Shown here piece by piece: positions 42,125 to 58,475 of a stretch of 58,475 nt of DNA. The stretch is taken from IMG/VR virus record IMGVR_UViG_3300003937_000086, positions 1-58,475 of that record; one strand, 5' to 3'. The notes beneath the pieces were generated by a model. The model was given only the letters and a program-made list of their open reading frames with translations, searched no databases and was not told the DNA's origin. The position numbers and the translations under genes are program-made. This DNA comes from a virus. The stretch's first letter is position 1, and each line of letters starts with the position of its first letter.

Positions 42125-42350
42125 TTTTTTTCTAAACACACATATATACATGATGGACTCCGTCCAAAAAGTCGAGACCTACCGGTGGCGTCTCCCGAAC
42201 CCCGAACCCCGAATCACTATCACTATCATCACATCACGATACCACGATGCGTGAATAGTGGAGAGGGATCAGGGAAGCGGGATTCATGATGAGGGGATCA
42301 GGGAATCAGGTGTCGGCGGATCAGCGAGGCGGCGCGGCTTTGATATGCAT

Positions 42351-42480
42351 CGGACTGGACTGGACTGGACTGGACTGGACTGGACTGGACTGGACTGGAC
42401 TGGACTGGACTGGACTGGACTGGACTGGACTGGGCTGGGCTGGGCTGGGCTGGGCTGGGCTGGGCTGGGCTGGGCTGGGC
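42351..42480. repeat. Pentanucleotide satellite: CGGAC plus 15 TGGAC then 10 TGGGC
   Basis: Twenty-six consecutive 5-bp units (130 bp): one CGGAC, fifteen TGGAC (42356-42430), and ten TGGGC (42431-42480). The change from A to G at unit position four is abrupt. Open frames across it are artefacts of the 5-bp period. Perfect arrays of this kind slip easily, so copy number may vary and assembly may be unreliable here. Confidence 0.95.
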
Positions 42481-42483
42481 CAC

Positions 42484-42519
42484 GCTTCCCGCTTCCCGCT
42501 TCCCGCTTCCCTGCTTCCC
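42484..42519. repeat. Heptanucleotide GCTTCCC repeats
   Basis: Four consecutive GCTTCCC units followed by one more after a single T, directly right of the pentanucleotide satellite. Together they form a strongly strand-asymmetric block. Confidence 0.85.
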
Positions 42520-42671
42520 TTATCCCGATTCTTGATTATCGAAAAAAGATTCGATTGTGCTTGCAATAGGTCAATTCCTTTTCTTGGCCCTCAGATGCGA
42601 TCTGAGAGCGTTTGCCCCCATCCGGCTACTGGTATTCAATTTCTTTTCAAAACGCGATCCTGAGCGATTCG

Positions 42672-42720
42672 CTGTTCTGTTGAACAGTGGAAAGGGTGTT
42701 CAAAACTTTGCCTTTATATA
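42672..42720. promoter_or_regulatory. Possible operator cluster and -10-like box
   Basis: Palindromic half-sites CTGTTC-TGT-TGAACAG (about 42672-42687), another TGTTC at about 42697-42701, then a TATATA box at 42715-42720. The half-sites resemble those bound by LexA- or repressor-type proteins, but no good -35 is spaced from the box and no repressor gene is adjacent. Weak. Confidence 0.25.
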
Positions 42721-43300
42721 GTGGTGTTTTTTGAGGGGCAGCCGGAACAGGAATAGCCGTTGAGTGGTAAGGGATTAGGGAGTTTGTCGAGTCAGAGGGA
42801 AAAGAAACTGAAGAATAGAGGAGAAAAGAAGTTGACCAGCAAACGAGATACGACTACCGTTGCGGCAGGTTGACGTGAGTCAGCCGCCCAGCAAGCTCCG
42901 AGAGCAACAGCCCAAGTTAGGCCAGTCTGGATGAGGAGGGGCAAGTGATCATGGATCGCCCCGCCAATCTCCTCTCTCCCGATTCCCCGTCGAGTCTGAG
43001 CCGCTACCAAGCCGCCACGATTAAGAGACCTTCGGATATCATGAGAGAAGAGAAACCGACCGCCAAAGGAAACCGACCATAACGCTACAGCGATGGAAGG
43101 ACCACAGCGGCCAGCGGCGCGAATGCCCCACTGGAAACCATAAGATCGGAGCAGCTCTAGAGAGGGTCCGGTCGGAGATCACACAGTGAGGGTCCGCCAC
43201 GATCCCGCCTCATTCAATCCGCCATGACCAAGAGAGAGCGATTGGATAGGGGCAAGCTGAACGAATGTTTGGAGGAGCGGATATAACCATGCAACTCACT

Positions 43301-43366
43301 AGCAGTCCCGCTTCGGCGGGGCATAGCTGACAGCCTCCGGCCAGTCCGGAAGCTGTCAGCTATGAA
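43301..43366 (+). ncRNA. Structured leader, copy 1 (two hairpins ending at a start codon)
   Basis: An exact 66-bp sequence that recurs at 43577-43642. First hairpin: CCCGC-TTCG-GCGGG with a UUCG tetraloop; then the linker GCATAG; then a second long hairpin AGCTGACAGC...GCTGTCAGCT with inner TCCGG/CCGGA. The ATG of the downstream gene (43362) directly follows the second stem, so folding could control translation. The only GGAAG Shine-Dalgarno-like bases lie in the second stem. Confidence 0.7.
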
Positions 43367-43568
43367 TGAACTAAATATTGAACTAACTACTGAGCAAATC
43401 AAGACACTGACCGATTCTGAGTTCTGGGATCACTACGGAATGATCGCCGAAGCCGCGACTCAATGCCCGCAATCAGGCATCTATCGATTCGATGTCACCG
43501 AGCTTAGACGCTTCCAGAATGAAGCACATCGCCGCCTATTGGAGTCGATGGCCCTTCCTAAAAAGTGA
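43362..43568 (+). CDS. Small protein of the accessory arm, 68 aa
   Basis: Starts at ATG 43362 directly behind leader copy 1. Acidic and helical (IELTTEQIKTLTDSEFWDHY, DVTELRRFQNEAHRRLLE); no motif recognised. It ends 69 bp before the start codon of the AAA ATPase gene, and the second leader copy fills that gap. It is probably the first gene of the same regulated set. It might be a small regulator or a component of the AAA/VWA module. Confidence 0.55.
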   Translation: MNELNIELTTEQIKTLTDSEFWDHYGMIAEAATQCPQSGIYRFDVTELRRFQNEAHRRLLESMALPKK

Positions 43569-43576
43569 ATCCTAAA

Positions 43577-43642
43577 AGCAGTCCCGCTTCGGCGGGGCAT
43601 AGCTGACAGCCTCCGGCCAGTCCGGAAGCTGTCAGCTATGAA
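43577..43642 (+). ncRNA. Structured leader, copy 2
   Basis: Identical over 66 bp to 43301-43366, including the UUCG-capped hairpin, the GCATAG linker and the long second hairpin that ends at the ATG of the AAA ATPase gene (43638). Perfect duplication 276 bp apart with different downstream genes suggests a portable cis-regulatory unit. Confidence 0.7.
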
Positions 43643-44741
43643 AGCAAACAATACCCCGACCGCCAATACGGTCGATCAGATAGAAGCGGTTGCCAAGGCC
43701 GCTCTCGCCTCAGATAACTTCCTCCGGATACTTGGCAGATCCGGAGCTGGTAAAACCACGCTGGCCGCCAAGCTGGCAAAGGCTCTCGGCATCGATGCCG
43801 ACCGTGTCAAACTGGTCAACTTCTCCGGCAGCTTGCCATCACAAGTGATCGGCCAGTTAATGCCCGATGCCGCCAGCCGCGAAAGCTGGCGGACCAAGCC
43901 GATTGACCTGCCGCTCCGGCAGGATGTCGGCGATGATCCATATCTCATCATTCTAGATGAGTTTGAAAGCTGGGAGCAAAGCATACAGTGTCTCTTTCAT
44001 GGATTGAAGTCGCCGGATGGCGTGCCGCGAGTCGGCAGTCATGAGCTTCCGAAAGGCACGTTCGTGGTCTTGACTGGCAATCGTCGGGAGGACGCCGCCG
44101 CCAGCAATACTGGCAAGGCTCCGATCGTCGGCAGATCGTCCTCCATCGAATGGCTCCCGACTGTCAAGTCGTGGGCCGATCACGAAGGTGAACGTGCCGC
44201 CGCAAGTCCGATAGCCGCCTTCCTTGGCTACGCCGCCAAGGCCGGATCGGAAGTCGCCGACTTCTTTTGTCCCGCCCCGCCGAAACCTTGGCGCGGCGAG
44301 CCTTACCCACAGCCCCGTGAATGGTCCGCCGCTCTCGCAGTGGAAGCCAGTCCGGCATGGCCAGCCGATCCGGCATTGCAGAATTTGATTCTGGCATCGA
44401 AGGTCGGCCAGTCCGCCGCCGATGCTTGCACGGCGTTCTTATCGCTGGCCAAGAAGATCTTGCCATTGATGGAGTCAATCCTGAAAGGCGAGGCATCACT
44501 GCCGACATCGCCGCAGGATCGATACGCCATCGCTCACTGTGCAATCAGGAGAGCGATTGACCTTGCCGGTAATGATCCGGAGGCCGCCGTTGCCGGTGGC
44601 CACCTCGATCCGATCATCGAGCGGGTATTACTCCCACTCGGACCGGAAATGAGAATCTGGTCCTTCTCCGCCGCCAAGGCGGCTGGCATACCATTGGAGC
44701 TTCACAGAGCGCAAGCTCAACTCCAGAACCTTAACCTCTAA
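43638..44741 (+). CDS. MoxR-type AAA ATPase, 367 aa
   Basis: Walker A GRSGAGKTT (33-41), Walker B IILDEFE (Asp107, Glu108) and sensor 1 VVLTGNRRED (Asn148) in canonical order. The C-terminal half is Pro/Ala-rich and helical. MoxR-type ATPases work with VWA proteins to activate or assemble targets, and a VWA protein is encoded two genes downstream. Base composition differs from the phage core: Gly/Ala/Pro codons ending in C and a visibly higher GC content suggest recent acquisition. Regulated by leader copy 2. Confidence 0.85.
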   Translation: MKANNTPTANTVDQIEAVAKAALASDNFLRILGRSGAGKTTLAAKLAKALGIDADRVKLVNFSGSLPSQVIGQLMPDAASRESWRTKPIDLPLRQDVGDDPYLIILDEFESWEQSIQCLFHGLKSPDGVPRVGSHELPKGTFVVLTGNRREDAAASNTGKAPIVGRSSSIEWLPTVKSWADHEGERAAASPIAAFLGYAAKAGSEVADFFCPAPPKPWRGEPYPQPREWSAALAVEASPAWPADPALQNLILASKVGQSAADACTAFLSLAKKILPLMESILKGEASLPTSPQDRYAIAHCAIRRAIDLAGNDPEAAVAGGHLDPIIERVLLPLGPEMRIWSFSAAKAAGIPLELHRAQAQLQNLNL

Positions 44742-45662: not shown

Positions 45663-46959
<1,297 letters not shown>

Positions 46960-46973
46960 CAGAGGTCCAACAT

Positions 46974-47022
46974 TGCTCCCGCCTTCGGGCGGGGGCATAG
47001 TTGGATTGATCAAATCAATCCT
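46974..47022 (+). ncRNA. Structured leader, diverged copy 3
   Basis: CTCCCGC-CTTCGG-GCGGG hairpin, then the same GCATAG linker, then a second hairpin GGATTGA-TCAAA-TCAATCC whose stem sequence is completely different from copies 1 and 2. Retained architecture with changed pairing supports a functional RNA. It lies between the VWA gene and the HTH gene at 47045. Confidence 0.55.
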
Positions 47023-47044
47023 GCTAAAACCATAGACCAGAAAA

Positions 47045-47666: not shown

Positions 47667-47921
47667 ATGGATAATCCTATCGATACTATTAAACGGTTAA
47701 GACTATTCCGGCGACAACGTGAACTGGAGTGCAGATTCTCGAAAGAAGAGGCTCCCCATGTTGTCGATATTGTTTTACGCAATTTAATCGAGGAGGGTAT
47801 AATCGAAAGCGCGGATGATCTGGAAACGGTAGGGGCTTCGCTCACCGTCCGCTACACTACCCTGAACCCTGAACCAGTGCGCCCTGTAGATGATACAGGG
47901 CGCACCATTCAGGAGTCATGA
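47667..47921 (+). CDS. Small helical protein, 84 aa
   Basis: Basic N-terminus (IKRLRLFRRQRELECRFSKE) and acidic middle (HVVDIVLRNLIEEGIIESAD). The last codons run through a perfect 12-bp stem hairpin (47877-47905) in DNA. Its stop overlaps the next ATG (47918). Function unknown. Confidence 0.5.
   Translation: MDNPIDTIKRLRLFRRQRELECRFSKEEAPHVVDIVLRNLIEEGIIESADDLETVGASLTVRYTTLNPEPVRPVDDTGRTIQES
47877..47905 (+). other. Perfect 12-bp hairpin near the 3' end of the 84-aa gene
   Basis: GTGCGCCCTGTA and TACAGGGCGCAC are exact complements with a 5-base loop and lie inside the coding sequence. A strong mRNA structure just before two overlapping small genes could modulate coupling. Confidence 0.7.
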
Positions 47922-49131: not shown

Positions 49132-52100
49132 CTACTCAGATTCTGTAATAGGCCGGACAGGAATGTAGCGGTTGATCTTTGAGGCGTGGTCGTAGATCTG
49201 CTGCGCTCGCGCCCTGCCGTATTCATCAGTCCTTGGGTCGAGCAGACTCTCGATAATGTATTTGAACGACGGCCTGTCCATGTATCCTTTACTCAGTAGA
49301 GCGACCCGATCTCGACCCAGCTTCTTATCCTTCATCCCCTTGAGGAGGTCGGTGTTAGTGAGTCCGAGAGAGGCGAACCCTTTATTGATCCGCATCAGTT
49401 CGTAGTTAAGGAGGCGTCGATCCTCGATGTTCTCATCGATGATGTCCGCTACATCTCCGTCGCTCATAGGGACGTTACGCTTCACCGCGTTGAGTCCGCT
49501 CTTCACGTTGTTGAACCTATTGTTCAGATCCAGCAGGTATCGCGAATACTGTTTCTGGAGATCGACATCATGGATACGGAACGGCATCGCGCCGTCCATA
49601 ATCTCAAGAGTCATGCCCTTCAGAGATCCGGTTGCCCATCCCTCGAAAAAATCCTTACCGAGTCGCGGAGCGTATGCCTCCTTGGCGATGTGGCCTAAGA
49701 TCTTCGATCCGGCTTCCATCGGGCCATCGGCCCCCTTGTTCCAAATTGGTTTACCCGTTGACGGGTTAAGGTTTCGGCGTGCCTCAGACACTGCTCCCGA
49801 GAGGATCTGATCGTCTAAGTATTGATCCCTCACCAAGCCTAACGCGATGGCGGCCCCCGCTTCAGTGAACTCACCTCTGCGGATGTTCTCATACCCTCGC
49901 AGGAACGGATCGACCAGTAGCGAGTATGGATTGACGTAGGTCAGGTCAACCGACTTCAGCTCACCGTTCCATCTGTAATAGAAGAACGTATGCCCTCTGA
50001 GGTAATCTGGAATGGATGCACGCATTGCCTCGTCCTCCTCATCCCCGATGCCCGATAGCGCGGCGAGGACCATAGGGAGAGCGGAAGAAAGAACTCCTAT
50101 CGTTCCGATCATTGATCCCCTTCTCAGTTTACCTCTCTGAACCAGAACAGGGTTGCCGCTGGCGATCTCCTCACTGGCGAGCTTGAACGTGTTGATCACG
50201 ATCCGCGGAACCTCCATCTTGAATCGGATGAACGGGGCGAACAGCAGGCCGAGACCGGACTTCGTGAACGCTGCGACGGCTGGCGGTGCTTGGCTGTATG
50301 CCTGTGAGGTCATGACTACCTTGCGAGCGGCCAGACGTTTGATCTGCGTGTCGCTCATAGCGGCGAGGTTGTTGACCCCCACTTTGCCGTCCTTGACCGT
50401 GCTTGTGTCGGCGGCTTTTGCTTCCATCAGGATTGCCAACTCATGGTTGTAGTAGGCGATCTTGTAGGCGGCGTCGAGAGCGGCGGATAGATCCTGCGCC
50501 TTCTTCTCAATCATCGCTAGACCCTTAGTGACTTTATTGAGTTTCGTCTTTTCACCTAAGTCTTCGATCTGTTTCCTGATGCCGTCGGGTGTTACCTTAC
50601 CGTTCAGGAGGTCTTTCAGAACTCCGGCGCGGAGTTCGTCGCCCTTGATGTTCAGGCCGATAAGCTCATTAAGCTCTGGGTCAATCTCGCCGTCTTTGAA
50701 AGGTCTTAGGTCATAAGTTCCTTTCAACATTTCAGAGACCATCTTGTCGTAGCGGAAGAATCCCTGAGAGGTTCCGAACAATATGTTGCCGATCCCGTTA
50801 CGTAAGTAGAATCCGATGGAGCCTAGAGTCTTAGCTGCCATCGCCTTACCGCTAAGGTTAGCGGCTAAACCAACAGCTCCTTTAACAGCTTTCTCCGCTG
50901 TGTCGGCGTATCCCATCGAGAGGGAGTCCATGAGCGCAACGTCCAGAAGCTCTTTGAATTTACGATCTACCTGCATTCCTGAGAGGGGGTCGTTCTTACT
51001 CGGCGCACCCGATCTAGCGGCCTCAAAGTTAGCATACTTGGCGCGGCTCTCTGCGGTAGCTAACTTCTCTTTCACCGTGACCATGACGCCCGTGTCCTTG
51101 CCGTATTTCACCATTTGGTTCAGGAATGCCTGCTGCGACGCGATTGTCGCGACGGTCGAGTAAGTCCGAAGAATCAAATCGATACCGGACTCTGACCCGA
51201 TTTCGCCGAGAAGATTTCGGATCGCCTCCGGCAGCTCTTTACGGCGTCTGAGGTTGTCCTCAATCATCTTGTAACCTTTAGGCGTGGTCGTCGTCGAGTC
51301 TCTGCCGCCCTCCTCATACTGCATCAAGAAGGTGTTAAGCGAACCCTGCGCGTATGATCCATGTGGACTGCTTTGGTTCTCTCTTTCGAGGAGTATGCGA
51401 GCTTCAACCTTGGCACGCGACTCGTCCATGCCACCGTCAAACAGCTCCTTGGCCTTATTTTTTATGTATTGGTCCTCAAAGAACTCCATAGCGGCGTCCC
51501 TCACATCTTGGTAATCGGGATCTTCCCTCACCTTCTGGAGGTAAGACGAGTCGGTGAACATCCGGTAACTGCGGGTAATGTAGACTCCTCCGGTCTTAGA
51601 GATCTTGGCTCCAATATTTTTATCGAGGCCAGAAGCAACGAGTTTCTTCTGGAGCGGGATGATCAACCTCTGCCGTATGTCGATAATGTGAGCGGCTAGC
51701 TCTGGAGAGTCCTTAGCGAGGTCTCTCAGAGCGGTGTCGCGGTCGGCTTCCCTAGACTTGCGAGCATCTTCGTAAGCTTTATCGGTGGCTTCAGTTCTAA
51801 CATTATGGGCGAGTCCCTTTAAGGAGTCAGCTTGTTCGTCAGTGATCTCACCTGCTTTGCGCTTATTCTCTGCGTCGGCGTGTGCGTCGTCGTAATCTTT
51901 CTCGATAGCGTCAAGCACTTCATCAGTAACCATGTTACCTGTGTAGTGTCCCTGCGCGAGAGCGATCATTTCCATCGGCGCGTTTTCGTATCCGCCGTAG
52001 GTCTCCTTAATGAGTTTATCCATCTCCTGTTTATAGGCGACGACGTTAGCCTCAGTAAGTCGCTTGTAAGCGTCTCGGTTCTGAATCAATCGGCGGAAGG

Positions 52101-55100
52101 CTTCTGGAAGCTCGCCAGCGAACACATTATTCAGGAACTTCATGATGAAGTTCTGTGGCTTTCCGGTCTCGGTCTCGTATACAGGAATCTCAAGGAGATC
52201 GACCACTGCGGAGAAGTCTATGTTCGATCCTGTCTGCTGGCCGGACGGCGCGGCTGCGGCTGCGGCTGCGGTGGGGGCTGAATACAGAGGTAGTTTTACG
52301 GTCTCAACTCCCTCGTCCGCTTTTCTAAATATAAGTTCGCGTTGAGAAACACCAACGGACGGTGGGAAGATGCTGTCTTCCTCCGATTTTTTAATTGGAT
52401 CTGTGTTGCCGTCATAGGGGTCGGCTGCTTTTTTGGGGTTAGGTTTCTTAGCCGAGTAAACTACGTCTTTCCACAGGTTGGACTCACTCAGAACGTGGAC
52501 TACAGGTGTCTCACCCGAAGTGCTGCGTATAGAATATGGGTATGAGTCATGGAAGTCAGTCTCGACGGCTTCGACCTCTCCCTTCATCGAGAGAACAGCG
52601 TAAACCCGCCCAGATGCTTTCTTATCCATTTGCTGAAATTGCTGGAAGGTCTTGACCAGCGGCTCTGCAAAAAGATCTGCCATGCCCTGCATGACTGATG
52701 CCTGTGCGAGTTTGCCTTGAGGTATGTTACCTTTATTGTATAGGTTCTTGTCACCAGCCAGAAGATCAGCTATGTTCAAAGCCTGATTTTTCTTTTTATC
52801 GAAAGCAGCTTTTTCCTTTGGGCTGAACTTCTTCTGAACTTCCACTGTCGGCAGTTTCATGCTGTCAGCTATTGCTGACGATATCTGAGCGATAAAGGAA
52901 CCACGTTGTGGGAACACTGACTCTTCAGGGTGGAGATTCTTTTTCATCTCCTCTATGTTTTTAGCCAGTCCGTCTTTCAGCTTCAGTTTCCTTGAAAATT
53001 CTTTGATGGTGGTCGTCTCGACTCCTGTATCTTTGTCTTTCTTTTTAACAACTAATCTCTCTTTACTGGCGTTAACAATAGCACGGTTTACGACCGCCTC
53101 AGTGATCCCATACTTCTTGGGGTTCTTGGCTAGAGTGGCGAACAGGTTGACCGCTCCCGTAGCCATTGTTGTGGAGCTAAACATCTTCTCGATGGGAGCG
53201 GACGTGAGAGCCATCAGAATAGTTCCGTTGTTGCGCTTGGATATCTTGTTAAGGTTTTCCGCCATGTTCACGGCGGCGTCCTTGGTAGATGCCCAGAAAT
53301 ACCCTTGGTCACCGAACATGACTGGGTAGTAAACACCTCCCTTGCCGTCTACGACCTTATCGCCCTCGACCTCCAGTGTGCCTGCCATCGCGCCGTCAGG
53401 TTGGTGGAGCATGACGGCCATTCCCTCAAACTGGTCGAGGGATTGCTGTATCTTAATGTATCCGTTCTTGATCTTCTCGTAAAACTTCCCGTCTTCTTTG
53501 ACGTAGATGTGTTTGACTATGGGATCACTCGCACTGGCGATTTCTGGTGGGATCTCGGCGGGTGTAGTAGCACCAGCCACCGGAGCAGAGTAAAGGTTAC
53601 GGGTAGGTTTGAGTGGAGTAGGGTCTGATTGTTTTTCATCAATCAAACTCTTCATTGTTTCGTGAGCAGGAGGATCTACTTGTGGATCAACCTTTTCGTA
53701 TCTCGCACCCTTAACCCAGATCGCGAAGTTTTGAAATGGGTTTGTGCTTGATGAATCAAGGTTACTGACCATGACCATCTCATCAGCACCAACAAATTTA
53801 CTCTGTGTGTCGAAGACAGGCTTACCTGCGGTGTCTGTAGACACACGATACATATAGTTGCCCATTGCAGGATTGTATGACAGGGCATCCCACCCTTCCT
53901 TCATATCCGAAACATCAATATCTTCATTAGCAGATACTAGTTCCCCTGTCGGCCCACCGATTACATTCTTCGGACCCTGTGCATACACAACAGTTCCTTC
54001 AGGTATCAGAGAGTTAGGTGCTTTGTTTTTAAGTTGAGGGTTGGTCAACTTGAGGTCAGTCATGTTGATTGCTGAAGTTACTCCAGTTCTCTTTGCGGCA
54101 GTATTGATTGAGTCCAACACATCTATGAGTTTCATGTCACTTGTTAGCTCATACTTGCTGGCACTTCCTTTAGATAAGAAGTTCCTGTAGACAGTTTTGT
54201 TGAGGTTTGGGATACCTGCATTCTCCATGCGGACGTTGAATGCATTATACTTCGCACCACCGATCTCTAACGAGAAGGGCATTACACCCAAAGGATACTT
54301 CTCTAAGTCTGCTTGAGACTCTCTGCTTTTTCTGCCCAGCGTTATGTTGGTGTGAGAGAGTGTTACCTTAACATTCTTGTTTGGATTCTTCGCATCATCA
54401 AGAATCTGTTTAGGTAACCCAGCAGAGCCTCCAACGGATTCGCCGTTCACTAATTTACCTACTGCACTGTGGTCAGAAGGGATAGCCCCAGCGTTTGAAC
54501 CCCACCCAGATTGTAGTTTAGGTGGGGGTGGGAAATCCACCTCCGCCATATACTCAGCACCAGCCACCGGAGCAGAGTAAAGGATACTGCTTTTACTTTC
54601 ATCGAACCGCTGGCTAAGTGGGATCACGTTGCCGTTAGCGTCACGGGTGATAGGGTCTGCGGATTTGATTTGAGACGGGTCTCTAAATGCTATAGTGTTG
54701 GCTTCCTCTCCAGATGTCTCCTGTATCGTCATCGCGTCATACTTACTGAGAACAGCATCGACTACCTTGTCGTTCTCCCAGACAATATAACTTCCCCCCT
54801 CAATCATTCTCATCGTTTGGGGGAGGATCTCAGACTCTGACTTGACCCCGATGGACTCCATGATTTCATCAGAGAACTCCCTCCAATTAGATGGATCAAA
54901 TATTTTATTTGCACTAACGTAACCTTCTATTACACGTATACCCATCGACATCTGTGCCTGTATCATCGTCATCCCATCTAGCAAACCACGTTCAATTTCG
55001 GCTCTTTTTTCAAAGACCTCCTTTGAAAGGTTGGATGGAATGTCGTCCCCATACTCGGCACTTAGTTTATCAAACGCATCCTCAGCATATTCGTTACCCT

Positions 55101-58100
55101 CCTGCTTCGCAGCATCGATTCTTTTTTGAACGTCTGCTTCTGGATTTCTGTTTCCGCCATACCCACGGGGGTAAGTTTCCGCCATCTCACGATCCTTGGA
55201 AAAGTAGATTAGCTTGTTAATGTCTCTGTCACTCTTGAACTTATCAAACCGCTTCTTTGTGCCGTGATACAGCTTCATTAGTGGGTTATACCCCGCCTTC
55301 TTAGCAGCCTCATCAACCATGCGCTGCTGTGTCTCAACGTCACCGGATTCGACCGCCGCCATATACTCAGCGTCTTCTACCGGAGCAGACGCTAAACCAA
55401 CGAAGTCCTGATTCACGGTCCCGAACATCCTGAAAGCCTCCATCGGGTTTTCGGGATTGAACGCCATCTTCGTGGGCTGGCGGACGAAACCTACCTCGAT
55501 AGCTCGCATCTCAATAATCAACTTATTGAGGGCGATATCTGCTGCGGCTCCGATCTTTTTACGGTTGGCGACCCATCGGTTGATGATCCCCCTAAAGTAA
55601 CGATTCAGAATCCTAAGTAAGGAAGGCTTTGATTTCCAGAATTGGGTGTCGTCCTCAGTAGTGAAACCCCGTGTGACCTTCTGGAGGTGCATACGAAGTT
55701 TCTCTTCCGCCAACTGATACTTGGCGTCTGCGACCACTTGAGGGTCAGATGACTGAAGTCTCGCCAGCATGGTCGCAAGTCCACCTTCGTTTCCGACGAG
55801 GTATTCTTTAGCGATGTCCACGTAGTCTGAGTCAGAAAGACTGTTGATGTAATTCTGAATCTCTTCGTCGGTCAAGGCGTTGAAGCTGGCGTTATGGGTC
55901 AGCTCCTCGTTGATTATAACACCAGCAATTGCGCGTCCGGCGATATCACTAACGTCGCCTGTCTGGCTCAACATAACAGGCAGGTTGATGAAGATCGCTG
56001 AAGAATCAGGGTCCACAAAGGCAGCACTGCCGCCAGACTCAGTAGTGAGTTTTATGTCTATACCCACCGGAACCAGACCCCTGATGTAATTGTATAGTTC
56101 TCTTACTTTAGGTCGGTCTGCCTCTGGAACACCTTCAAGGAATCTCTCAGCATCTTCCACGTCTTTCTGACGCTTCGCTTCAAGACGTGCCTGCTCTGTC
56201 TCGCGCTGCATCTCGCGCAACGCCTCTGCCCTCTCCATCCGAGACTCGGTTTGGGCAACTGGTGAACTGTATAACGTCACTGCATTACCGATCTGACCGC
56301 CCAAAGCTTTGGCGTTGGTGGGCGTTGTCTTGCGGGTATTTCTACCCACGTCGATAACATCCCCAAGAGATTTTGCTACTTTTTTGGCGGCCCCTCTACC
56401 TACATTAGGGAACAGCATGGCTAGGTTAATCAGGAAGCGATCAAAGATTGAAACCTTGTCACGCTTGAGATCTCTAACGTGCTTCTGCACTTCTTCCGAT
56501 AACAAGAACTGAGCGGTGAACTCATTAAGATCGACAAGAGCGTTCTCAAGAGACGGAACGGGTCCGCTTCTTTCTTTCTGCGATTCGTAAGACTCTTTTG
56601 CGAAGTCGAAAACAGCGGATAACTGTTTAAGTGTAGTCTGGACTTGAGACGATTTCTCCGCGATTTGAGCCTCAGTAGCTGAAGTGGTATCAGAAATAAA
56701 TGCGTGGACGTATTCCTCAAGTAGTGTGTTGACGAGACCTCGACCGTTTCCAGATGTCACGTTGATAAACACAGTGTGCGAGCCGTCGTTCCCCTTGATG
56801 TATTTGCCTGCGATGTCGGCGGTTGTCTCCCCCAACACAAACTTAACCCCCTTGATCAAATCAGTGTCACGCAGAAGCAGGTCAGCTACGACTTTGTGAG
56901 ACGGGTTATCTGAATTTTTAGCGACCTCTTTAAGGGCTTTGATGACGCTGTCAGGGTTCCCACTCTCAAGACCCAGTCTCTCGATATCAGCCTCGTTCTC
57001 AGCCGTGATGGTTGCCCTCTCGGCGGCAGAGATGTTAGATCTCGATAGGTGGGTGCGGACTGCTTTAGTTAAAGCAATCATTGTGTTCTTCGCCTCGTCA
57101 ATAGAGATCTGTGTCCCCACGGCGTCAGTGAACAGAGCTTGGTATACCTTTACAGCATCAGAGTTCTCGTAGCTCGCACCGTCCGAGCGGGTTGCGAAGT
57201 TGACGAGAAGTAGAGCGTTAAGAAAATCTGTGCCGCTGGTCGAGAGTGCTTCATCCTCGATAGCGTCCACAAGCTTATTAACAGATGGTCTGGTGTCGCC
57301 GTTTCCAGATGACATCCATGAAGTAAACAGCCCGAACACGTCTTCAGCACTCGCGTTATCAACCATGCCCTTCATCTCAGGAGTGGGGTCGTTCAAGACC
57401 TCGTCAAGGATAATCTTGTTGACCTCTCTGCGTAAGTCTGGGCTGGTATTCACCGCCCCAATCGCGGTGTCTATCGCTCCAGATACTGCGTCACTTATAT
57501 CTTGTGGAGAAGCTAGTTCACCTTCAGGGTTACGCCCGAAGTTCGCGATCCACCCGCTTACTTTAGCGGTCCTGAACTCAGCGGGGGCTACGTCGAACGG
57601 GAGGGTGGAGACCGCTCTCTGTTCTCTAAGGGAGTTGGCGTCGTCCTGTTGCAACTTAAACCTATCGGTAGCTTTTCTAAGTAGCGTGTCGAAGGTAGGC
57701 GTCGCGTTGTTAGCGAAGTCAGGGTTGTTCTGGAGTTTCTGCTCTATGAACAATCCGAGAATCGTTTCGCTCGTAAGGTTGATGTTAGACTCTACTTTAA
57801 CAAAAGGTAGAAGTTTTTGGGCTGCTTGCTCTACATTTTTAGATCCTGTCTGGGCTACCAGCTCATCGAAGGGCGTGGTAGGATTGGTTCCCTGTCCGAA
57901 CTCTTTTACTTTTTCGCGGAGACTGAACAACTGTGCGTTGAACAAGAATTCTTGCTTGGCCGACTCTAACGCAGCGGCGCGGAACTCAAGATCAAGCTCA
58001 CCGCTGGGAGTTTCAAAGCGAGCTTGGATGGGCCGTGTCGTCTCGTCTCCGGTCTTCTCCAGCTCAAGAGCGAATCTATTGATTCTATTTTTAATGTCAG

Positions 58101-58475
58101 TAGTGCTACCAAAAAACTTTCCTTCTATGGGTCCGCCGTTTTCTGGGTCGAAGTCTGCGACGCCATTTGGTAGGGTGGCTGGCTTGAACGGGATACTGGC
58201 TAAGGCAGCAGCTCTCGCGTTGTTCGGCTCAATCGAACTCACGTCCCTCGCGTTACCGAGCTTAGACTCTAGCAGGCGACCGTCGGCGGTAGGCCCGACC
58301 ACGTCAGTAACCCTCCCGTCCTTGATTCGGATAGCGGGGTTGAGGTTTGCTCTATTGAAACTGCGGGGAACCTTAACGGTTTTAGCAGCCCTCAACATCT
58401 CAATAATAGAGATCGGGTCGTTATCGAATATGCCGTTACCACTATCATCAACAAAAAATTTAACGGGCTGTCTTT
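49132..58475 (-). CDS. Giant polyvalent-type virion protein, C-terminal part (continues from 1-3591)
   Basis: Frame-continuous with the ATG at 3591 across the circle junction; total 4300 residues. Residues below are full-length. About 1770: zincin-like LLEEYVHAF; about 2040: second zincin-like INEELTHNASF; both have E-E-x-x-H instead of HExxH. About 2250-2470: ADP-ribosyltransferase-like module with KLYHGTKKRFDKF, LIYFSKDREMAETY and IKSADPITRDANGNVIPL, the ART-PolyVal type. Modules at about 2490-2810 and 2820-3240 are not recognised. From 3250 on a long helical part with hydrophobic stretches ends in RPITESE. Five motif copies of the L-Y-S-A-P-V type separate modules at 1921, 2214, 2485, 2814 and 3250. 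Role: probably carried in the virion and delivered to the host. Confidence 0.88.
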   Translation of the reverse strand, partial: RQPVKFFVDDSGNGIFDNDPISIIEMLRAAKTVKVPRSFNRANLNPAIRIKDGRVTDVVGPTADGRLLESKLGNARDVSSIEPNNARAAALASIPFKPATLPNGVADFDPENGGPIEGKFFGSTTDIKNRINRFALELEKTGDETTRPIQARFETPSGELDLEFRAAALESAKQEFLFNAQLFSLREKVKEFGQGTNPTTPFDELVAQTGSKNVEQAAQKLLPFVKVESNINLTSETILGLFIEQKLQNNPDFANNATPTFDTLLRKATDRFKLQQDDANSLREQRAVSTLPFDVAPAEFRTAKVSGWIANFGRNPEGELASPQDISDAVSGAIDTAIGAVNTSPDLRREVNKIILDEVLNDPTPEMKGMVDNASAEDVFGLFTSWMSSGNGDTRPSVNKLVDAIEDEALSTSGTDFLNALLLVNFATRSDGASYENSDAVKVYQALFTDAVGTQISIDEAKNTMIALTKAVRTHLSRSNISAAERATITAENEADIERLGLESGNPDSVIKALKEVAKNSDNPSHKVVADLLLRDTDLIKGVKFVLGETTADIAGKYIKGNDGSHTVFINVTSGNGRGLVNTLLEEYVHAFISDTTSATEAQIAEKSSQVQTTLKQLSAVFDFAKESYESQKERSGPVPSLENALVDLNEFTAQFLLSEEVQKHVRDLKRDKVSIFDRFLINLAMLFPNVGRGAAKKVAKSLGDVIDVGRNTRKTTPTNAKALGGQIGNAVTLYSSPVAQTESRMERAEALREMQRETEQARLEAKRQKDVEDAERFLEGVPEADRPKVRELYNYIRGLVPVGIDIKLTTESGGSAAFVDPDSSAIFINLPVMLSQTGDVSDIAGRAIAGVIINEELTHNASFNALTDEEIQNYINSLSDSDYVDIAKEYLVGNEGGLATMLARLQSSDPQVVADAKYQLAEEKLRMHLQKVTRGFTTEDDTQFWKSKPSLLRILNRYFRGIINRWVANRKKIGAAADIALNKLIIEMRAIEVGFVRQPTKMAFNPENPMEAFRMFGTVNQDFVGLASAPVEDAEYMAAVESGDVETQQRMVDEAAKKAGYNPLMKLYHGTKKRFDKFKSDRDINKLIYFSKDREMAETYPRGYGGNRNPEADVQKRIDAAKQEGNEYAEDAFDKLSAEYGDDIPSNLSKEVFEKRAEIERGLLDGMTMIQAQMSMGIRVIEGYVSANKIFDPSNWREFSDEIMESIGVKSESEILPQTMRMIEGGSYIVWENDKVVDAVLSKYDAMTIQETSGEEANTIAFRDPSQIKSADPITRDANGNVIPLSQRFDESKSSILYSAPVAGAEYMAEVDFPPPPKLQSGWGSNAGAIPSDHSAVGKLVNGESVGGSAGLPKQILDDAKNPNKNVKVTLSHTNITLGRKSRESQADLEKYPLGVMPFSLEIGGAKYNAFNVRMENAGIPNLNKTVYRNFLSKGSASKYELTSDMKLIDVLDSINTAAKRTGVTSAINMTDLKLTNPQLKNKAPNSLIPEGTVVYAQGPKNVIGGPTGELVSANEDIDVSDMKEGWDALSYNPAMGNYMYRVSTDTAGKPVFDTQSKFVGADEMVMVSNLDSSSTNPFQNFAIWVKGARYEKVDPQVDPPAHETMKSLIDEKQSDPTPLKPTRNLYSAPVAGATTPAEIPPEIASASDPIVKHIYVKEDGKFYEKIKNGYIKIQQSLDQFEGMAVMLHQPDGAMAGTLEVEGDKVVDGKGGVYYPVMFGDQGYFWASTKDAAVNMAENLNKISKRNNGTILMALTSAPIEKMFSSTTMATGAVNLFATLAKNPKKYGITEAVVNRAIVNASKERLVVKKKDKDTGVETTTIKEFSRKLKLKDGLAKNIEEMKKNLHPEESVFPQRGSFIAQISSAIADSMKLPTVEVQKKFSPKEKAAFDKKKNQALNIADLLAGDKNLYNKGNIPQGKLAQASVMQGMADLFAEPLVKTFQQFQQMDKKASGRVYAVLSMKGEVEAVETDFHDSYPYSIRSTSGETPVVHVLSESNLWKDVVYSAKKPNPKKAADPYDGNTDPIKKSEEDSIFPPSVGVSQRELIFRKADEGVETVKLPLYSAPTAAAAAAAPSGQQTGSNIDFSAVVDLLEIPVYETETGKPQNFIMKFLNNVFAGELPEAFRRLIQNRDAYKRLTEANVVAYKQEMDKLIKETYGGYENAPMEMIALAQGHYTGNMVTDEVLDAIEKDYDDAHADAENKRKAGEITDEQADSLKGLAHNVRTEATDKAYEDARKSREADRDTALRDLAKDSPELAAHIIDIRQRLIIPLQKKLVASGLDKNIGAKISKTGGVYITRSYRMFTDSSYLQKVREDPDYQDVRDAAMEFFEDQYIKNKAKELFDGGMDESRAKVEARILLERENQSSPHGSYAQGSLNTFLMQYEEGGRDSTTTTPKGYKMIEDNLRRRKELPEAIRNLLGEIGSESGIDLILRTYSTVATIASQQAFLNQMVKYGKDTGVMVTVKEKLATAESRAKYANFEAARSGAPSKNDPLSGMQVDRKFKELLDVALMDSLSMGYADTAEKAVKGAVGLAANLSGKAMAAKTLGSIGFYLRNGIGNILFGTSQGFFRYDKMVSEMLKGTYDLRPFKDGEIDPELNELIGLNIKGDELRAGVLKDLLNGKVTPDGIRKQIEDLGEKTKLNKVTKGLAMIEKKAQDLSAALDAAYKIAYYNHELAILMEAKAADTSTVKDGKVGVNNLAAMSDTQIKRLAARKVVMTSQAYSQAPPAVAAFTKSGLGLLFAPFIRFKMEVPRIVINTFKLASEEIASGNPVLVQRGKLRRGSMIGTIGVLSSALPMVLAALSGIGDEEDEAMRASIPDYLRGHTFFYYRWNGELKSVDLTYVNPYSLLVDPFLRGYENIRRGEFTEAGAAIALGLVRDQYLDDQILSGAVSEARRNLNPSTGKPIWNKGADGPMEAGSKILGHIAKEAYAPRLGKDFFEGWATGSLKGMTLEIMDGAMPFRIHDVDLQKQYSRYLLDLNNRFNNVKSGLNAVKRNVPMSDGDVADIIDENIEDRRLLNYELMRINKGFASLGLTNTDLLKGMKDKKLGRDRVALLSKGYMDRPSFKYIIESLLDPRTDEYGRARAQQIYDHASKINRYIPVRPITESE
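52257..52287 (-). other. Module-boundary motif 5, L-Y-S-A-P-T-A
   Basis: Residue 3250; followed by an Ala run and a GQQTG linker before the C-terminal helical domain. Confidence 0.85.
53569..53595 (-). other. Module-boundary motif 4, L-Y-S-A-P-V-A-G-A
   Basis: Residue 2814; identical to motif 3 through AGA, then TTPAEIPPEIA, a Pro/Glu-rich linker to the next module. Confidence 0.9.
54547..54582 (-). other. Module-boundary motif 3, L-Y-S-A-P-V-A-G-A-E-Y-M
   Basis: Residue 2485; the most complete copy. It directly follows the IPLSQRF end of the ADP-ribosyltransferase-like module and leads into a Pro-rich linker (FPPPPKL). Confidence 0.9.
55360..55395 (-). other. Module-boundary motif 2, L-A-S-A-P-V-E-D-A-E-Y-M
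   Basis: Residue 2214 of the giant protein; a variant with Ala instead of Tyr but retaining SAPV and the trailing AEYM. It immediately precedes the ADP-ribosyltransferase-like module. Confidence 0.8.
56254..56274 (-). other. Module-boundary motif 1, L-Y-S-S-P-V-A
   Basis: Codes for LYSSPVA at residue 1921 of the giant protein, followed by a Gln/Glu/Arg-rich helix. First of five similar boundaries. Confidence 0.8.
58444..58475. repeat. Terminal redundancy, right copy
   Basis: Exact copy of bases 1-32. The reading frame of the giant protein is preserved across the join, which supports genuine circular continuity. Confidence 0.95.

Follow-up and report, generated by a model that had tools for sequence, protein, structure and literature searches.

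A portable two-hairpin RNA leader predicted to mask start codons between phage genes

Introduction

Why should two unlike phage genes begin behind the same leader, base for base? In a virus record of 58,475 bases (IMGVR_UViG_3300003937_000086, analysed over its whole length and called the window below), positions 43301-43366 recur at 43577-43642 with 66 of 66 bases identical, at an offset of 276 bases. The 58,475-base window holds no further copy within 3 mismatches, 0 being expected by chance. The original prediction took this exact duplication for a portable switch of translation, built from two hairpins, rather than for a terminator.

The proteins of the window include a family A DNA polymerase, a helicase, a PD-(D/E)XK nuclease and an amidase. 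Copy 1 of the repeat stands at the head of a rightward operon, with some 700 bases upstream that contain no likely gene, and leads into a gene of 68 amino acids (43362-43568, plus strand) that has no family match and in whose place relatives carry unrelated small genes. Copy 2 occupies the gap between this gene and one for a MoxR-like AAA ATPase of 367 amino acids (43638-44741, plus strand; PHROG 1297, E 3e-26; Pfam AAA_5), and a gene for a VWA-domain protein lies further downstream. Gene content and orientation suggest that the operon is an early one. A tandem duplication of both downstream genes was considered as an explanation of the repeat and rejected, the two proteins, judged by eye, being unlike beyond their first codons.

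The start-codon-masking phage leaders that we found described are one-offs. Here the leader is an interchangeable part, placed up to five times per operon in front of unrelated genes, in a genome nearly devoid of Shine-Dalgarno (SD) sequences, where accessibility of the start codon would be expected to be a main handle on translation.

Results

Two abutting hairpins close on the start codon

The fold of copy 1 consists of two hairpins on the plus strand. Hairpin 1 (43306-43321) is the UUCG-capped CCCGC/GCGGG hairpin that had been predicted, present in the fold as UCCCGC(UUCG)GCGGGG and backed by pairing and two-sided changes in relatives. Hairpin 2 (43322-43364), identified by fold and covariation, has a 19-position stem, CAUAGCUGACAGC...GCUGUCAGCUAUG, of which the start codon forms the final three bases. 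It had been called a long perfect hairpin ending at the ATG; the end is right, but 18 of the 19 positions pair and a single C-A mismatch interrupts the stem. Likewise, the repeat was said to stop at the start codon, and the ATG does close hairpin 2, but identity between the copies extends two bases beyond it (AGCTATGAA). A GCATAG linker between the hairpins proved to be misread: CATAG forms the 5' foot of hairpin 2, where CTATG is its partner, and the hairpins therefore abut with zero spacer. The two-hairpin fold has an energy of -44.7 kcal/mol, compared with -24.9 +/- 3.0 kcal/mol for shuffled sequences (z = -6.6).

By identity to copy 1, copy 2 has its hairpin 1 at 43582-43597 and its hairpin 2 at 43598-43640, also on the plus strand, the latter closing on the ATG of the ATPase gene. 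Immediately before them on the same strand (43566-43581) lie the stop codon of the first gene and a 13-nt spacer. This is the site of box A, a short sequence just 5' of hairpin 1 with the consensus CTAACAGCTAC, which is degenerate in the window (CCTAAAAGCAG).

A family of 18 copies in related phages

Relatives were reached through the ATPase, which led to two further virus contigs, both with the leader, and through the portal protein (49 loci). The ATPase orthologues in L125 and L126 have the two-hairpin leader at their starts too. With a covariance model built from five copies, 18 copies were located on 8 related virus contigs, each bearing 1 to 5 (window 2, G001 2, G002 1, G003 2, G004 5, G006 3, G007 1 and G011 2), and a second model (R2), built from all 18, recovered the same 18 with none extra at a convincing score. 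Homologues with covarying stems, which the original prediction had called for, were found in this way. Other early-operon proteins used as search seeds returned only contigs that were already known.

The ATG forms the 3' end of hairpin 2 in every one of the 18 copies. The genes behind them encode the ATPase in three phages, members of the p118 family (110-118 amino acids) in three others and small orphan proteins elsewhere; the downstream frames run to 60-370 codons in 17 of the 18 copies and to 11 codons in one. In this last case (L211, 656-760) another gene starts about 30 nt beyond the short frame, which could be what is left of a decayed cassette, or could encode a leader peptide.

Several candidate members were set aside. 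Model matches at G022, at G013 and at 46977-47033 were weak on inspection and were left uncounted; L128, L130, L132 and L221, the only contigs outside the phage group that pattern scans of viral contigs brought up, fail the covariance model and are attributed to chance; and among 119 stretches with palindromes from bacterial genomes, those read were AGCTGAYAGC-type or other palindromes that lack hairpin 1 or the ATG and are unrelated.

The element is absent from 42 of the 50 records of the phage group, several of them fragments and some with portals that are 94-97% identical; to judge by these 42 records, it is inessential to the lineage. Comparison with named phages and plasmids by blastn gave short chance-level matches only. 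Rfam 15 produced zero matches at gathering score over the whole window, and at a relaxed threshold the best match in 43200-43700 was at chance level, with 14.8 bits compared with a gathering score of 56. Literature searches found no description of this element, and we would class it as a new RNA family among start-codon-masking phage leaders. The portal protein had no match among named phages and zero matches in 392 genomes of one phylum (reached via a Planctomycetales MAG), and in 395 genomes of a second phylum (via a Saprospirales MAG) it had a single distant match, at 28% (1/395).

Compensatory change and a sense-strand RNA

The stems are kept while their letters change. In the alignment of the 18 copies, which was fitted to the structure, 96.7% of cells pair and two-sided change occurs at 12 of 25 pairs; in a plain, unfitted alignment of five copies the stems are also kept through letter changes, with 96-97% pairing. 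Covariation over the 18 copies is 0.310, as against at most 0.077 when the partner strand is slid and 0.148 +/- 0.013 in a shuffle control that ignores relatedness, yet several of the paired positions are filled by three or four kinds of pair. In helix 1, 100% of the cells of the five-sequence alignment and 99.1% of those of the 18-copy alignment are standard pairs; two-sided changes occur at 3 of its 6 pairs, and it takes the variants CCCGC/GCGGG, CCGCC/GGCGG and CCACC/GGTGG. In hairpin 2 the arm AGCTGACAGC is replaced by AGCTCACAGC, AGCTCTCAGC, AGCTATCAGT or AGCCTTCACC, with partners that match. In the minimum-energy folds both helices abut or nearly do so. The element measures 57-60 or 87 nt, in all reading phases, and this variation in length across phases excludes a coding leader or in-frame read-through.

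The hairpin 1 loop is usually UNCG, mostly UUCG or UCCG, and across the 18 copies there are 39 G-U cells compared with 13 A-C cells. From the loops, and from the surplus of G-U cells, we conclude that the element acts as a sense-strand RNA; the loop-type argument for RNA over DNA has also been applied to a different motif (PMC2864571). The same features weigh against an element acting as DNA, such as a mobile palindrome, a recombination site or a folded single-strand site between exchangeable cassettes. The sequence is indeed palindromic, repeated and located beside exchangeable genes, with leaders swapped across genomes, but UNCG loops and a G-U excess fit the RNA of one strand only, compensatory change preserves hairpin 1, every full-score copy is sense-oriented and ends at an ATG, and neither an integrase nor a transposase was seen among the adjacent genes scanned. 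We regard an explanation at the level of DNA as barely credible.

Some parts of hairpin 2 do not vary. CRUAGC/GCUAUG is invariant, one pair is G-U in 13 of 18 copies, and another is U-G or C-A in 16 of 18. The irregular conserved positions and the invariant bases could be recognition features of an operator at which a phage protein holds the stacked double hairpin shut and switches the leader genes together, in the manner of the MS2 coat protein or of T4 gp43 and RegA. One leader common to many genes resembles a regulon, and AUG-containing hairpins are classical operators. However, pairing with a fixed AUG accounts for the invariant bases as well, the remaining stem and loop sequence varies freely, and no candidate RNA-binding protein was found among the window proteins scanned, which leaves a bound operator as a real but minor possibility.

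The cost of opening the start site

Opening the region from -18 to +15 was computed to require 26.0 kcal/mol at copy 1 and 25.3 kcal/mol at copy 2. Over all 18 leader starts the cost is 19-31 kcal/mol (median 25.0). For 26 further starts in the window it is 0.9-16.9 kcal/mol (median 6.6), and the two ranges do not overlap. Opening energies were used in place of the mean probability that the AUG is unpaired, which separated genes poorly; the AUG alone can fray at a cost of 2-6 kcal/mol. On these computed energies, masking of the AUG by hairpin 2 is a well-supported prediction.

Starts of the window that lack the leader have A/C-rich leaders and are mostly open, and the element is an exception because the genome otherwise leaves its starts fairly open. 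The absence of a free SD sequence, correctly noted at the outset, is ordinary here, an SD-like motif being present at only 2 of the 29 starts checked. This suggests that the host initiates without SD pairing, and since the host is seemingly SD-independent, the rules of start-site structure known from Escherichia coli may not transfer to it.

In such a host the structure might conceivably help rather than hinder, the stacked hairpins bringing the 5' strand beside the AUG to aid SD-less initiation, as at T4 genes 38 and 25. The helices do abut or nearly so, and box A is thereby placed next to the AUG. Delivery of the ribosome in this way nevertheless appears improbable, in that the AUG lies within the stem, not 5-11 nt past its end, and the other phage genes start on unstructured A-rich leaders with no such element.

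Position between genes and exchange among them

That the repeat is not a terminator was borne out: the sense strand has no T run, and an open frame follows directly after every copy. Between 42400 and 43700 no intrinsic terminator was matched on the sense strand, the lone match being antisense, at hairpin 1, with a weak tail. Antitermination of the HK022 put type, in which the nascent two-hairpin RNA would bind RNA polymerase and terminators would be read through, is suggested by the similar size (about 70 nt), the two adjacent stem-loops, the early operon and one copy near its head. Yet an early operon has a single put site, whose distance from a gene is not fixed, whereas here up to five copies lie within 1.5 kb, and antitermination has no need of the AUG end found in 18 of 18 copies; we consider this reading highly improbable.

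The upstream stop codon precedes hairpin 1 in all 12 internal copies, by 7-15 nt in 11 of them and by 7-32 nt over the whole set, and the distance from this stop to the next ATG is 65-72 nt in 10 of the 12 (65-91 nt overall). Since the stop lies before hairpin 1, a terminating ribosome halts short of it and need not unfold it. The arrangement speaks against translational coupling by unfolding, as the upstream frame never enters the structure in any of the 12; such coupling is lost once the stop lies well 5' of the hairpin (PMC12548453).

The leaders have also changed places. Their likeness averages 0.73 within a genome and 0.73 between genomes, despite the identical pair in the window. Leaders G003a and G004-2 are 97% identical and G003b and G004-1 95%, while the leaders of the orthologous p118 genes of G003 and G004 are 81% identical; because likeness across genes exceeds that of the p118 orthologues' leaders, we conclude that leaders moved between genes. 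Standing before unrelated genes in 8 contigs, ending at the ATG, covarying and exchanged between genes, the leader has earned the description portable.

The description as a translational switch fared less evenly. Position and opening cost point strongly to a role in translation, but a switch with two states would involve box A, which is poor in both copies of the window and in some promoter-proximal ones. In such a switch, box A would pair with RTAGCT in the 5' arm of hairpin 2, extend hairpin 1 and free the AUG, and a ribosome on the upstream stop would cover box A and shut the gene. In 12 of 18 copies 5-6 contiguous box A pairs are possible, with the AUG-free fold 2.7-10 kcal/mol above the ground state; the stop codon, 7-15 nt before hairpin 1, sits atop box A; and the variant at 46950-47030 adopts the fold with the extended hairpin 1. 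On the other side, masking is preferred in the ground state, and the variable sixth pair shows no clear covariation while the other pairs cannot vary. If real, a toggle among three strands (box A, the 5' arm and the AUG arm), built on the stacked double hairpin, would be a regulatory RNA of a new class, used by phages of SD-less hosts, each gene of an operon being masked or open according to the ribosome or nuclease traffic on its neighbour and the part being traded between genes like a cassette. We think both this toggle and the simpler two-state switch unlikely.

Other structures of the locus

An intergenic structure after the VWA gene, at 46950-47033 of the window and 9360-9431 of L125, does not end at an ATG. 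Its UUCG hairpin is extended, with UCCAAC...GUUGGA in the window and UUCACC...GGUGGA in L125, an apparently compensatory change, and its second hairpin is GGATTGAT/ATCAATCC; it may be the leader in a variant form, with hairpin 1 extended. A second recurrent intergenic design consists of CCTGAACC, a strong hairpin and then ATTCAGG[AG]GTCA, with stems that vary, at 47870-47920 of the window, 9845-9900 of L125, about 7000-7040 of L133, about 2060-2120 of L210 and about 1705-1760 of L211. More distant phages have repeated intergenic hairpins of their own, among them GCTTAGTGCGTCCGCATTAAGC, TACCCCTTAAGGGGTA and CAGCAGCCTGCGCTGC (L171, 7400-7960; L165, 3100-3600; L215, 5340-6180), and it may be usual in this phage group for each lineage to have its own repeated structures between genes.

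At the operon head, a non-coding stretch of about 440 nt precedes copy 1 (42850-43290, plus strand) and gives a weak signal of structure (z = -2.4). Non-coding stretches of about 330-440 nt stand at the operon heads of L125 (5140-5610), L126 (5590-5925), L138 (8466-8830) and L210 (95-420) as well, and across the phages they are related, in two types, and possibly structured. Compared with Rfam they gave nothing above chance; they may be a separate structured RNA. Just 5' of the operon, at 42350-42480, are tandem GGACTGGACTGG / GGGCTGGGCTGG repeats, and L133 and L125 have different short tandem repeats at the equivalent position. Elsewhere in the window an unbroken open frame of 3088 codons occupies the minus strand at 49132-58398.

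Discussion

The repeat is probably an intercistronic module, portable between genes, that masks the AUG until hairpin 2 is opened or cut. Sequence and computation speak for the leader's structure, its fixed position at the AUG, its sense-strand nature, the masking energy and its portability; repression and a release step are our inference. Hairpin 1, a clamp capped by C(UNCG)G, and hairpin 2, with its roughly 19 pairs, would abut and could stack end to end. On an intact transcript a ribosome would have to open about 25 kcal/mol to bind the start, and downstream genes would be masked or strongly dampened within the polycistronic message. A ribosome finishing the upstream gene would stop 7-15 nt before hairpin 1, and the module would stay folded.

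The most economical release would be cleavage of hairpin 2, which together with hairpin 1 would offer about 25 stacked base pairs as an RNase III-like target. After the cut the AUG would lie exposed on a 3' arm without structure, and the upstream message would keep hairpin 1 as a shield for its 3' end. We favour RNase III-type cutting of hairpin 2 as the step that would open the gene, because this one step would explain both hairpins, the layout of one element per gene and the abutting helices. Release could otherwise come from the binding of a phage or host protein or from a refolding in which the 5' arm of hairpin 2 pairs with box A instead, and a protein operator and a box A toggle are the main alternatives to cutting. 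Among the window proteins scanned, neither a ribonuclease III nor an RNA-binding repressor was recognised. No sigma-70-like promoter occurs in 42400-43700; a phage late promoter may differ from sigma-70. The leader offers a natural test case for the control of initiation without SD pairing, and possibly a compact genetic part.

Several known systems invite comparison. In phage T7, RNase III sites lie between the early genes of one transcript. The leader resembles them in that hairpins stand between consecutive early genes, several per operon, and about two helix turns are present between genes (19 + 6 abutting pairs, in 12 intergenic copies), a likeness read from sequence; it differs in that the stem ends on an AUG, behind a separate UNCG hairpin. 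The operator hairpin of the MS2 replicase gene is an RNA element at or near the initiator. The operators of T4 gp43 and RegA are similarly at or near initiators, and RegA is one regulator of several genes (PMC3014915). RegA sites, however, are unstructured and A+U rich, whereas those described here are structured hairpins.

The putRNA of HK022 has two adjacent stem-loops in about 70 nt of an early operon (PMC9378689). By this description the leader is like it in its paired stem-loops and its size, and unlike it in having up to five copies per operon, each fixed at an AUG, with hairpin 2 free in sequence. T4 genes 38 and 25, with their split ribosome-binding sites, also have RNA structure at a phage translation start, but their hairpin lies between the SD sequence and the AUG and aids initiation, whereas here the AUG is in the stem and an SD sequence is absent.

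The closest likeness in start-codon masking is to T4 genes e, soc, 49 and I-TevI, where hairpins sequester the AUG or SD sequence; with its start sequestered, gene e is synthesized at about 100-fold lower levels (PMC3014915). As in gene e, the start region of a phage mRNA is tied up in a hairpin, here according to computed folds, and the start codon lies within a stable, conserved stem in 18 of 18 copies. Late promoters that lie immediately before the start of gene e relieve its block, whereas here no promoter was seen. The T4 leaders are single, while the element described here adds a second, clamping hairpin to an SD-less start and stands, as one family, before many genes.
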